Below, piece by piece: positions 1,526 to 4,987 of a DNA stretch of 40,124 nt. Source of the stretch: Nitrospirae bacterium JdFR-81 (GTDB lineage: Bacteria > Nitrospirota > Thermodesulfovibrionia > UBA6902). Every line of letters begins with the position of its first letter. The stretch's first letter is position 1. The stretch is taken from the NCBI GenBank assembly GCA_002011735.1, contig MTOQ01000052.1, positions 1 through 40,124 of the forward strand, written 5' to 3'. Both the position numbers and the translations under genes were made by a program. The notes below the pieces were generated by a model, which made no database searches, had not been told where the DNA came from, and saw only the letters and a list, made by a program, of their open reading frames with translations.

Positions 1526-1917
1526 TTGTGTCAGGGCATATCAGCCTGTTGAAGGGAACCATCCACCCCTTGGAATTCGATAGTTTTATCAACTTACACA
1601 GTTTGATGGACAGCCCCAATTATTCAAAACGAAGAGAAAATAGCAGTTGCTTAAGAAGATAAAACTAATGCCATATAAGATATGTAATCTGTTAGACTGA
1701 GCATCCAATCAACGCAAATTGTACAGAGCATTCTTATATCTGTTTCTTAAAGACTTCTCGATATCAAAAACCTCTTTCTTTTGAGAAATATAATAGTTTA
1801 TTCTACTGACGCAATGAGAAAAGTGCGATGTTCAATTTTTAAAGGGATGTCTATGCTGATCTAAAATATGCTAAAATTAAGGTGCATTGTCTCAACACAA
1901 GAAGAAATTAGAAAATC
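1526..1917. other. AT-rich gene-free stretch
   Basis: No intact gene, tRNA or clear rho terminator is visible here. Base composition becomes AT-rich after about 1590, unlike the flanking rho gene. On the minus strand, 1709-1831 is open for about 40 codons, reads like protein (it contains FDIEKSLRNRYKNALYN) and ends in TGA, but has a stop just upstream and no usable start, so it may be the tail of a lost gene. Just upstream of the next gene, TATGCTAAAAT (1867-1877) could hold a -10 element. Confidence 0.5.
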
Positions 1918-2130
1918 ATGATAAGGAATCTTCAAAAGATTGAAGCCTTTGAAAAAGAATTCATCAAAAGAGATAAAAGCCTCTCTTACGAAAAGGCTCT
2001 CAAGATCTTTACATCCCTATGGAAGGAAGGGATGGATCTTGGAGTCCTGCCTCCTCAAGACCCCATGGAAGGTATAGAGATTGATATCAAAATTGCAAAG
2101 ATCTTGAACTCATGTTTGAAGAACTCTTAG
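1918..2130 (+). CDS. Small protein paired with a nucleotidyltransferase (possible antitoxin-like partner)
   Basis: A 70-aa charged, mostly helical protein without a domain I can name. Its C-terminal half (DLGVLPPQDPMEGIEIDIKI) looks conserved in style, and small proteins of this kind occur upstream of MNT-fold nucleotidyltransferases. It overlaps the next gene by 19 bases, implying translational coupling. The ribosome site is weak (AAGAAGAA about 10 bases upstream of the ATG). It uses AGA as well as AGG for arginine and is AT-richer than the core genes, which suggests transfer. A role as partner or neutraliser of the nucleotidyltransferase is inferred from position only. Confidence 0.65.
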   Translation: MIRNLQKIEAFEKEFIKRDKSLSYEKALKIFTSLWKEGMDLGVLPPQDPMEGIEIDIKIAKILNSCLKNS

Positions 2131-2669
2131 CGAAATTAGCTGCCTCTCTTGATAGACACAGAATACCCTATATGATCATTGGTGGACAGGCTGTACTTGT
2201 CTACGGAGAACCAAGACTCACAAGGGATATAGATATTACTCTTGGTGTTGATGTTGATCGTTTAACAGATATTCTTTCAATAGCACAGGAGGCATCTTTA
2301 AAATCTTTACCTGACAAGATTGAAACTTTTGTAAAAGAGACAATGGTTTTGCCAGCAATTGATGAGGCTACTGGAATCAGGGTGGATTTTATATTCTCTT
2401 ATACTCCTTATGAAAGAGAGGCAATCAGCAGGGCAAATAAGATAAAGATTCTCAATCAAGAGGTCTGTTTTGCTTCTGTAGAGGATGTAATAATACACAA
2501 GGTCTTTGCAGGAAGAGCACGAGATATTGAGGACATTAAATCCATATTAATTAAAAACAGAGATATAGACACAGAATACATAAGAAGGTGGCTTAAGGAA
2601 TTTGATACCTCACTGGGAGAGGATAGATTTTTGAATACCTTTATTGAATTACTGAAAGAGATATCTTAA
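2112..2669 (+). CDS. MNT-fold nucleotidyltransferase (AbiEii/DUF6036-like)
   Basis: A 185-aa stand-alone nucleotidyltransferase of the polymerase-beta superfamily. The fold signature is visible: the glycine-rich IIGGQAVLVYG (about 22-32), the metal-binding RDIDITL (about 38-44, two Asp), and a third acidic strand VDFIFSY (about 95-101). A C-terminal helical part follows, with EDVIIHKVFAGRARDIEDI, typical of the AbiEii/DUF6036 group. Family members are toxins of type IV-like systems or enzymes that add nucleotides to tRNA or proteins; the target here is unknown. It overlaps the 70-aa gene and ends 10 bases before the 50-bp repeat. Confidence 0.85.
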   Translation: MFEELLAKLAASLDRHRIPYMIIGGQAVLVYGEPRLTRDIDITLGVDVDRLTDILSIAQEASLKSLPDKIETFVKETMVLPAIDEATGIRVDFIFSYTPYEREAISRANKIKILNQEVCFASVEDVIIHKVFAGRARDIEDIKSILIKNRDIDTEYIRRWLKEFDTSLGEDRFLNTFIELLKEIS

Positions 2670-2679
2670 ATAAAAACTC

Positions 2680-2729
2680 TAACAATCCCTTCCTGCGGAG
2701 GGCTAAAGCCGTCACAGAAATTGGTGTTA
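2680..2729 (+). repeat. 50-bp direct repeat, copy 1 (attC-like hairpin)
   Basis: Identical over all 50 bases to 3217-3266. The ends are inverted (TAACA at the left, TGTTA at the right). Inside, CC/GG, CTG/CAG and CGG/CCG segments can pair with small bulges, giving one long imperfect hairpin. This copy begins 10 bases after the nucleotidyltransferase stop and ends 15 bases before the DUF4160 start. The flank reads TCTAAC at the left, matching the YYYAAC half of an integron attC core, but GTTATGG at the right does not match GTTRRRY well. Confidence 0.9.
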
Positions 2730-2744
2730 TGGTAAAATTAAAAT

Positions 2745-2984
2745 ATGAGTCCAACAATATTTTTCGAAAAAGGGTATCGGTTCTTTTTCTTCTCACGAGA
2801 AGAACCAAGGATGCATGTTCATATATATTGTGCTGATGGTGAAGCTAAATTCTGGTTAGAACCGGAGATAGAACTTGCAAAAAATTTTAAGCTTTCAAGG
2901 AAACAATTAAAAGAAATTGAAAATATCTTAGAGGAGCATTACGATGAAATCAAGTCAGCTTGGCAGGAATGGTTTAAAAGTTGA
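2745..2984 (+). CDS. DUF4160 family protein
   Basis: A 79-aa protein with the DUF4160 pattern: an N-terminal 'SPTIFFEKGYRFFFFSREE' strand pair, the conserved 'EPRMHVHIYCADGEAKFWL' core (about 20-38), then a helix with 'SRKQLKEIENILEEH'. DUF4160 genes are usually found directly before a DUF2442 gene, as here; the pair is widely listed as toxin-antitoxin-like, but its activity is not established. There is no clear Shine-Dalgarno before the ATG. It starts 15 bases after one repeat copy, and its end overlaps the next gene by 41 bases. Confidence 0.85.
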   Translation: MSPTIFFEKGYRFFFFSREEPRMHVHIYCADGEAKFWLEPEIELAKNFKLSRKQLKEIENILEEHYDEIKSAWQEWFKS

Positions 2985-3213
2985 GGTAACTAATATATCA
3001 AGTCATGGTATATGGTTATTAACCAGAGACAAGGAGTTATTTTTATCTTATGATGATTTCCCCTGGTTTAAAGATGTGCCGGTTAAGAAAATATTAAATG
3101 TGGAAGAAGTAACACCAGATCATTTTTACTGGCCTGAACTTGATGTGGATCTGAGTATTGAAATTATAGAACATCCTGATAGATTTCCTCTAAAAGCCAA
3201 AATGAACAGATGA
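2944..3213 (+). CDS. DUF2442 family protein
   Basis: An 89-aa DUF2442 protein. The core 'GIWLLTRDKELFLSYDDFPWFKD' followed by 'ILNVEEVTPDHFYWPELDVDL' is the family's hallmark (describing how the domain reads: a small beta-rich fold then the W-P-E-L-D-V-D-L end). The start at 2944 has a strong GAGGAG Shine-Dalgarno (2931-2936) seven bases upstream inside the DUF4160 gene, which supports the 41-base overlap and coupled translation. Its stop lies three bases before the second repeat copy. It is probably the partner of the DUF4160 protein; which one is toxic, if either, cannot be told. Confidence 0.87.
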   Translation: MKSSQLGRNGLKVEVTNISSHGIWLLTRDKELFLSYDDFPWFKDVPVKKILNVEEVTPDHFYWPELDVDLSIEIIEHPDRFPLKAKMNR

Positions 3214-3216
3214 CCA

Positions 3217-3266
3217 TAACAATCCCTTCCTGCGGAGGGCTAAAGCCGTCACAGAAATTGGTGTTA
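3217..3266 (+). repeat. 50-bp direct repeat, copy 2 (attC-like hairpin)
   Basis: Perfect copy of 2680-2729, starting three bases after the DUF2442 stop. The two copies exactly bracket the DUF4160/DUF2442 pair, so the unit '15-base leader, two genes, repeat' is 537 bp long. The right flank reads GTTAGTT, again only partly matching the attC consensus. No integrase gene is in the window. Confidence 0.9.
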
Positions 3267-3322
3267 GTTTAAATAGATACAGGTACAGGGATATATGCCA
3301 GCAAATCCACTTATAAACAAGG

Positions 3323-3355
3323 CAAAAACCTGCACTTACGAAGTGCAGGTTTTTG
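3323..3355. terminator. Bidirectional intrinsic terminator
   Basis: A perfect 14-bp stem (3324-3337 with 3341-3354) with a three-base ACG loop. The GC core CCTGCACTT is flanked by A5 on the left and T5 on the right, so it ends transcripts from both directions. It separates the plus-strand accessory genes from the minus-strand gene that ends at 3362. Confidence 0.93.
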
Positions 3356-3361
3356 GGGTAT

Positions 3362-4987
3362 TTATGTTGGGCATATTACCCTGCCGAGTATCTCTGTGAG
3401 CCTCAGATTCTCTGAGTAATCCACAGGACAGTCGATAACAGAGGGCCTGCGCTGTGAAAGGGCATCAGTGAGGATGTGGCCAAGCTCGCCCTCGCCTTCG
3501 ACCCTGTAGCCCTTTGCACCAAATGACTCGGCAAGCCTCACAAAATCGGGATTACCAAAGCTGCACCCAAACTCGTGGCCGAACCTCTTCATCTGTTTCC
3601 ATGAGATCATCCCATACGCCCTGTCGTTGAACACAAGGCACACAATGGGCAGGTTATATCTGAGCGCGGTCTCGAGCTCTGCCACACTCATCATGAAGCC
3701 ACCGTCTCCCATCACGGCCACGACATTCCTTTCGGGGTGGAGCATCTTTGCACTCAGTGCCGCTGGAAGGGCAAAGCCCATGGATGCAAAGCCATTGGAT
3801 ATGATCGATGTGAGGGGTTCGTATGCAGGATAAAACCTCGCCAGCCATATCTTGTGTGCACCAACATCACTGACCAGGATATCCTCCCTCCCAAGGGCCT
3901 CCCTGAGCTCTTTGACTATTCTCTGGGGCTTTAACGGGAAACCGCTGAGGTCCTGCATGAATGGAGAATCCATTGACTCCCTGAGCCTGAAGAAGTACTC
4001 GCCTTCTTTATCAAAATCTATAAGCTCATTCAGCCTCCTCAATGTCTCCTTGATATCACCCACCAGCGGGAATGCATTGTAGCGGGCGTCTACCTCAGGA
4101 GGTGTAAACCCTATGTGGATGACCTTCTTGTCACCACCAGGGTTCCAGTACAGGGGACTGAACTCCACAAAATCATATCCAATGGCGATAATGAGGTCTG
4201 CCCTCTCAAAACCACATGATATATAGTCCTTTGACTGGAGGCCTGTGGTTGAGAGGAAGAGCCTGCTGTCAGCAGGGATCGCACCCATCCCCATGAATGT
4301 GGTCGTCACGGCGATGTTTGCCCTTTCTGCAAAGGCCCTCAGTTCATGAGAGGCACCTGCCCTGATAACCCCATTGCCTGCGAGTATGAGCGGGTTCTCT
4401 GCCTCCTTTATCATCTCCACGGCCTTCCTGACCCTTGACCCGTCTGCAGGCGGACAGGCACCATCCAGATATTCAAGGGGTTCACCCCATGCCTGCATGC
4501 CTGCAACATCCTGCGGGACCTCTATGTGGGTGGGGCCCGGCTTCTCAAGGGTGGCTATCATGAACGCCTTCCTGATAACCTCTGGTATCACATCAGGCCT
4601 CTCAACCCTTATATTCCATTTCGTCAGTGGCCTGAAGACAGAGAGTATATCAACATATTGATGGGACTCCTTATGGAACTCTGATAGCTCGGTCTGTCCT
4701 GTGATGGCCACCATGGGAGAGAAGTCAAGAAGGGCATCTGCGGTGCCGGTTATAAGATTGGTTGCACCTGGGCCAAGTGTGGAGAGGCAGACACCAGGGC
4801 GGTGCGTCAACCTGCCCCATGCGTTTGCCATGAATGCGGCTGCCTGTTCATGCCTTGTTGTGATAAAGGTGATATCTGAGCTCCTTATCGCCTCGAGCAA
4901 CTCAAGGGTCTCCTCGCCAGGGATACCAAATACATGACGTATACCCTCTGCCTCAAGACACCTGACGAACAGCTCAGAGGCCTTCAT
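3362..4987 (-). CDS. Acetolactate synthase-like ThDP-dependent enzyme
   Basis: A 541-aa enzyme of the thiamine-diphosphate acetolactate synthase/pyruvate oxidase family, closest by eye to the stand-alone AlsS/PRK08322 group labelled acetolactate synthase large subunit. Seen: ELFVRCLEAEGIRHVFGIPGE at the start, the cofactor-activating Glu in TRHEQAA (Glu47), LSTLGPGATNL, and the ThDP motif beginning GDGGF near 427 and closing with FNDRAYG near 454-460. No regulatory (small) subunit gene is nearby, so it is more likely catabolic or of another specificity than the branched-chain biosynthetic enzyme. Its ATG overlaps the stop of the upstream phosphatase gene by four bases (ATGA), so the two are co-translated. 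Confidence 0.85.
   Translation of the reverse strand: MKASELFVRCLEAEGIRHVFGIPGEETLELLEAIRSSDITFITTRHEQAAAFMANAWGRLTHRPGVCLSTLGPGATNLITGTADALLDFSPMVAITGQTELSEFHKESHQYVDILSVFRPLTKWNIRVERPDVIPEVIRKAFMIATLEKPGPTHIEVPQDVAGMQAWGEPLEYLDGACPPADGSRVRKAVEMIKEAENPLILAGNGVIRAGASHELRAFAERANIAVTTTFMGMGAIPADSRLFLSTTGLQSKDYISCGFERADLIIAIGYDFVEFSPLYWNPGGDKKVIHIGFTPPEVDARYNAFPLVGDIKETLRRLNELIDFDKEGEYFFRLRESMDSPFMQDLSGFPLKPQRIVKELREALGREDILVSDVGAHKIWLARFYPAYEPLTSIISNGFASMGFALPAALSAKMLHPERNVVAVMGDGGFMMSVAELETALRYNLPIVCLVFNDRAYGMISWKQMKRFGHEFGCSFGNPDFVRLAESFGAKGYRVEGEGELGHILTDALSQRRPSVIDCPVDYSENLRLTEILGRVICPT

Follow-up and report, generated by a model that had tools for sequence, protein, structure and literature searches.

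What are the two identical short repeats that each stand behind a pair of small genes in a draft genome of the Nitrospirota, and do they mark the ends of units that move? The window, by which we mean the whole stretch of 40,124 nucleotides that was analysed, is contig C17 of the 2.05-Mb metagenome-assembled genome of Nitrospirae bacterium JdFR-81. Comparison of the 40-kb window with itself placed two copies of the 50-bp repeat TAACAATCCCTTCCTGCGGAGGGCTAAAGCCGTCACAGAAATTGGTGTTA, 100% identical and in the same orientation, at 2680-2729 and 3217-3266, and a 22-nt core pattern taken from the repeat gave two matches in the window against 0.00 expected in shuffles. The first copy begins 10 nt past the stop codon of a nucleotidyltransferase gene (2112-2669) and the second 3 nt past that of a DUF2442 gene (2944-3213), which confirms what an earlier note on this DNA had described, namely same-strand gene pairs each closed by the same sequence. 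The low GC content mentioned there is equally borne out (35.5% in the cassette DNA versus 50.7% in the window), whereas the deviant arginine codon use stands only as a shift in the AGA:AGG ratio, host genes being rich in AGA and AGG as well. The array lies between rho and a convergent gene for a TPP enzyme. A search of Rfam with the repeat gave no credible family, matches in phage and plasmid collections were at chance level only, and a scan of viral contigs gave none. The features discussed below are as follows.

1562-1621, no strand assigned: 60-bp repeated sequence, possible IS end, with 78-82% matches in JdFR-85 (G061), contigs C41 and C40
1616-1654, plus strand: 3′ remnant of a hicB-like antitoxin gene (PIIQNEEKIAVA*) to the left of cassette 1, the hicB name being given by eye
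1692-2726, plus strand: predicted cassette 1; its left end is putative and is placed at G^TT of GTTAGACT (1691-1698), its right end is the cut in attC site 1
1918-2130, plus strand: 70-aa protein of cassette 1, without Pfam family
2112-2669, plus strand: MNT-type nucleotidyltransferase of 185 aa, DUF6036/AbiEii (PF19502, 44.2 bits; PF08843, 28.5 bits)
2676-2733, minus strand: predicted attC site 1, R″ ACTCTAAC to R′ GTTATGGT, containing the identical repeat and matched by the covariance models R1 and R2 (see below)
2727-3263, plus strand: predicted cassette 2 of 537 bp, from the TT after the cut in attC site 1 to the G before the cut in attC site 2
2730-2738, plus strand: putative extended -10 promoter element TGGTAAAAT, seen by eye at the 5′ end of cassette 2
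2745-2984, plus strand: DUF4160 protein of 79 aa, DhiT-type toxin by family (PF13711, 73.7 bits)
2944-3213, plus strand: DUF2442 protein of 89 aa, DhiA-type antitoxin by family (PF10387, 53.9 bits)
3213-3270, minus strand: predicted attC site 2, R″ ACCATAAC to R′ GTTAGTTT, with the identical core and scored by both R1 and R2

The form of the two repeats supports their identification as attC sites, with the bottom strand as the predicted recombining strand. The bottom strand does fold into the single bulged hairpin that had been proposed, with an energy no better than that of shuffled sequences; folding alone is thus no evidence, and the identity of the sites was judged by other tests. The TAAC and GTTA ends, and with them the AAC and GTT that are invariant in attC, are present in all seven aligned sites of the family. 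All seven also have an extrahelical G in the L stem of the bottom strand and an extrahelical T 6 nt from it, and such a pair is conserved on the bottom strand of attC sites, the T lying 6-8 nt from the G (PMC2727003). Compared by eye with the consensus RYYYAAC/GTTRRRY, the R″ and R′ boxes of the window agree at 5-6 of the 7 positions each, a partial match that had been recognised from the start, and several relatives come closer or agree in full. The site is not slightly short, as had been thought: it measures 58 nt from R″ to R′ as against 60 nt in seven of the reference attC sites. No covariation was detected in the family alignment, in which the sequences are too conserved. Mismatches without counterpart in most relatives occur in the L stem of the two window copies, so that the sites of the window may recombine poorly.

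Two covariance models were used to examine this identification. R1 follows the published stem layout and was built from attC sites of plasmid integrons and one 59-nt attC that adjoins an integron integrase in a relative (G041), the sites under test being left out. Run unfiltered over the 40-kb window, R1 had attC site 1 as its top match (13.8 bits, E 0.15); attC site 2, which has the same core and another right flank, its R′ flank being the next chromosomal sequence, reached 7.9 bits (E 6.6) and is not significant alone. Family sites in two Nitrospirota relatives, unseen by the model, scored 25-32 bits (E 3.5e-6 to 2e-4), and R1 found a further attC in JdFR-85 (18 bits, E 0.02) a few bases past the stop codon of the next gene pair. 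The score with an attC model that had been proposed as a check was obtained for the family in relatives, and only weakly for the window's own two sites. R2 is a model of seven family sites, and its scores for attC sites 1 and 2 (78.7 and 76.9 bits) are those of training sequences. It has matches in 66 of the 230 genomes of the class and in 50 of its 115 genera, and it recovers the attC on contig C35 of G041 beside the integron integrase (E 3.2e-4), which was first found by a scan with the strict consensus. Among the 28 R2 sites that lie outside the training set and have enough upstream sequence, 15 start between -3 and +15 nt from the stop codon of an ORF with 60 aa or more, where 1.1 would be expected at random positions, and many of the genes upstream of R2 sites are of toxin–antitoxin (TA) type (HicA, HicB, ParE, YafQ). 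A strict scan for RYYYAAC/GTTRRRY and the L box near the integrases of relatives gave only a few attC sites; breakage of contigs at arrays may be the cause. Two other matches were discarded: one of 84% (G032, C27) appeared chance-like, the TAAC and GTTA ends being absent, and a pattern match in a Roizmanbacteria genome also looked like chance. With an attC subfamily model that covers more than a quarter of the genomes of the class, the integron-borne spread of TA systems outside Proteobacteria is open to survey.

Related sites occur elsewhere in the genome and in its relatives. Beyond the window, JdFR-81 has a divergent attC on contig C24 past a YafQ-type toxin gene and a decayed one on C12 past what appears to be the end of a parE-like gene. 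A degenerate pattern retrieved the same repeat from JdFR-85 and S146_51 (G062), both Nitrospirota; in S146_51 copies stand past hicBA, parDE, a yafQ-type pair and a DUF4160/DUF2442 pair, and its array consists of a 75-aa gene, hicBA and parDE with an attC past each, the first of these (R1 E 2.3) being assigned by place and form. The yafQ-type TA pair is 83% identical between C24 of JdFR-81 (L181, 1713-2245) and C70 of S146_51 (L084, 10477-11008); the identity reaches the R″ box and the attC beyond diverges markedly, the gene body being the same and the attC different. JdFR-85 has only a partial intI match with two in-frame stops (C38:211-591) and has nonetheless kept its attC cassettes.

By family assignment, cassette 2 encodes a toxin–antitoxin pair of the DhiTA family: its DUF4160 gene is followed by an overlapping DUF2442 gene, which is the arrangement of dhiTA, and DUF4160/DUF2442 is described as the type II TA system dhiTA in Dickeya dadantii (PMC8198452). 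Homologues of cassette 2 have A/T-rich, -10-like hexamers at the spot equivalent to the putative promoter element, and the cassette probably brings its own promoter. The R″ box at the 3′ end, ACCATAAC, is the exact reverse complement of the cassette's own 5′ end, GTTATGGT, so that in the circular form R″ and R′ pair over 8 bp, as expected for attC.

The same cassette was found in two other genomes. Positions 2725-3253 of the window are 90% identical at the DNA level to a region on contig C41 of G062, and positions 2728-3261 are 92% identical to one on C14 of G108; both genomes belong to another family of the class (G111 and G062 are one genome). The matching DNA sets in at the predicted cut, G^TT at 2726/2727, and breaks off within the attC, the flanks being unmatched, and the three loci have nothing else in common within 5-16 kb. 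For comparison, identity is 75-77% between rho of the window and its counterparts in G061 and G062. In G062 and G108 only the right-hand repeat stands with the gene pair, whose left end is a bare TTATGGT or TATGGT; lacking a left attC, the cassettes are solitary there. With homology bounded by G^TT and attC and with unrelated flanks, the mobile unit is one cassette, and the comparison of sequences shows that cassette 2 moved between genomes and loci as a single unit. The transfer of one intact cassette between families is thereby documented with both ends resolved to a few bases. Searches among relatives, which include no second genome of the genus, found no empty site and no strain-level exchange, and at the rho locus the relatives have another neighbour gene and no synteny. 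Together with recognition of the family by the canonical attC model, the shared cassette with its G^TT boundary and different flanks upholds the earlier suggestion of attC-closed, CALIN-like cassettes, and the other suggestion, a distinct element family that moves gene pairs, is not needed.

Cassette 1 is less sharply delimited. Its candidate left end, GTTAGACT, matches the reverse complement of the R″ box ACTCTAAC at 7 of 8 positions (chance P about 0.17 in the stretch), and no homologue in the genomes compared reaches this boundary, which is therefore unproven. The nucleotidyltransferase matches AbiEii in PADLOC (E 3e-5), and the 70-aa protein is, from the gene order, a possible antitoxin partner. 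Further left, G001 and G022 have hicB-like genes whose 3′ ends match positions 1618-1675 at 90-93%, and in the window the 60-bp repeat directly abuts this truncated 3′ end (1562-1675), which suggests that an insertion destroyed a TA gene beside the cassettes. A supposed hairpin at an empty site (AAACTAA at about 1662 and TTAGTTT at 3264) was rejected, its left part being the conserved tail of the hicB-like gene. To the right of the array and before the convergent TPP enzyme gene, the window has a 25-bp inverted repeat with 3-nt spacing (3313-3365) that is probably a terminator, and a 36-bp stretch at 3323-3358 has an identical copy on contig C2 of the same genome. The ends of the contig (1-99 and 40025-40123) are inverted copies of each other, 97% complementary, and represent either an assembly artefact or the end of a mobile element.

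An integron integrase of 411 aa is encoded in the same genome on the 8.2-kb contig C67 (6433-7668). It scores 409 bits against TIGR02249 (cut-off 265), its nearest solved structure is IntI4 (2a3v), and it has the R/K/HxxR/H/Y catalytic motifs and the integron-specific insertion of this enzyme class. About 100 extra residues, outside the Pfam domains, precede its SAM-like domain at the N terminus, and the gene adjoins a mutS-like gene (named by eye). Directly upstream of intI (L009, 7806-8118) a candidate attI junction reads GTTAGGAGG; behind it comes a small ORF that has a P-loop-like motif and may be the first cassette, and at this point the contig stops. Integrase-family genes are present on C2, C9 and C67 and none on C17; a complete integron, with intI and attI adjoining the cassettes, is thus not what the window holds, its intI being on C67. 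The description of the array as being without an integrase is accordingly true locally, on C17, but not for the genome, which has a full-length intI. CALINs have been defined, and their cassettes reported to be mobilisable in trans (PMC12444791). Two attC sites on a contig without integrase make a CALIN by definition, and we are confident that the array of the window is a CALIN of two cassettes whose cargo is of TA type.

How such cassettes would move can be outlined from the integron model. The bottom strand of attC would fold once single-stranded, IntI, either the resident enzyme or that of a former host, would separate G from TT in the R′ box, and the cassette would exit as a circle and then insert into another attC, into attI or into a secondary site of the chromosome. 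With a DhiTA-family pair and a probable promoter of its own, cassette 2 could persist by addiction and would be kept even far from the cassette promoter of an integron. Cassette 1, with its AbiEii-like nucleotidyltransferase and 70-aa partner, probably acts in the same way.

It could also be that these are genuine attC sites in a fossil state, left over by decay from an old integron, and that the cassettes are immobile now, a course of events that we regard as possible and as clearly the less probable one. The L-stem mismatches of the window sites, the hicB remnant and the possible IS end to their left, the decayed attC on C12 and the partial, stop-containing intI of JdFR-85 would all fit such decay. 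However, the window copies are 100% identical, an intact IntI remains in the genome, and cassette 2 is 90-92% identical across families where rho is only 75-77% identical. Loss of mobility is in any case compatible with the CALIN assignment. That the DUF4160/DUF2442 pair was moved by a MITE, or by a composite element with a direct copy at either end, is very improbable: two direct copies with TAACA/TGTTA ends do flank cassette 2, but the G062 and G108 loci, where the pair has the right copy only, fit a cassette and not a composite element, the genome has an integron integrase, and no lone copies inside genes with target duplications were noticed among the 37 sites listed. Hardly any credence at all is left for a REP, a terminator or another intergenic repeat standing behind two operons by chance. 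The repeat is indeed short, partly palindromic, intergenic and placed right past stop codons, but besides its two full copies the genome has just a divergent attC and a decayed site, not the many copies of a REP family. The scattered copies that had been named as a sign of such elements were not what was seen, for the copies are scarce and linked to small genes, at whose 3′ ends they stand. No T-run follows the repeat, the gene pair has moved between unrelated loci together with its right-hand copy, and the attC model recognises the family.

The two-cassette CALIN can be compared with several known systems. Like the cassettes of class 1 integrons (catB3, aadA2, aadB), those of the window consist of one or more genes followed by an imperfect palindrome of 58-60 nt with AAC and GTT ends, and the extrahelical G and T of the bottom strand and the G^TT boundary are common to class 1 attC sites and the window family. 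Unlike them, the window has R boxes that depart in part from the 7-bp consensus, and a two-gene cargo of TA or TA-like type instead of a single promoterless gene. From CALINs there is no essential difference, given two attC sites 537 bp apart on a 40-kb contig without integrase and intI elsewhere in the genome; CALINs with intI elsewhere have been reported in Xanthomonas (PMC12444791) and in archaeal MAGs (PMC9668308), and the texts consulted do not describe the attC subfamily of the window. The kind of element, an integron cassette, is already known, the point of greatest interest being that solitary cassettes have passed between families. What the window adds is that integron cassettes carry a DhiTA pair and an AbiEii-like pair in a phylum to which the integron literature found here gives little space.

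TA-pair cassettes with their own promoters are known from the sedentary chromosomal integrons of Vibrio cholerae (PMC11023631), where they sit inside one large array, whereas here they occur in pairs or solitary at scattered loci. Insertion of cassettes outside integrons, mediated by attG sites, has been described (Loot et al. 2024, cited in PMC12901181), and the solitary cassettes without a left attC at unrelated loci in G062 (C41) and G108 (C14) resemble cassettes inserted in this manner, their membership of the attG class being putative; if they do sit at attG-type sites, they would be natural examples of the attG route. As a tentative and rather doubtful generalisation, one could envisage that TA cassettes of the class live mostly outside integrons, solitary or paired at scattered non-attC sites, maintained by addiction and their own promoters and passed between families, so that attC would serve here mainly as a device for the dispersal of TA systems.
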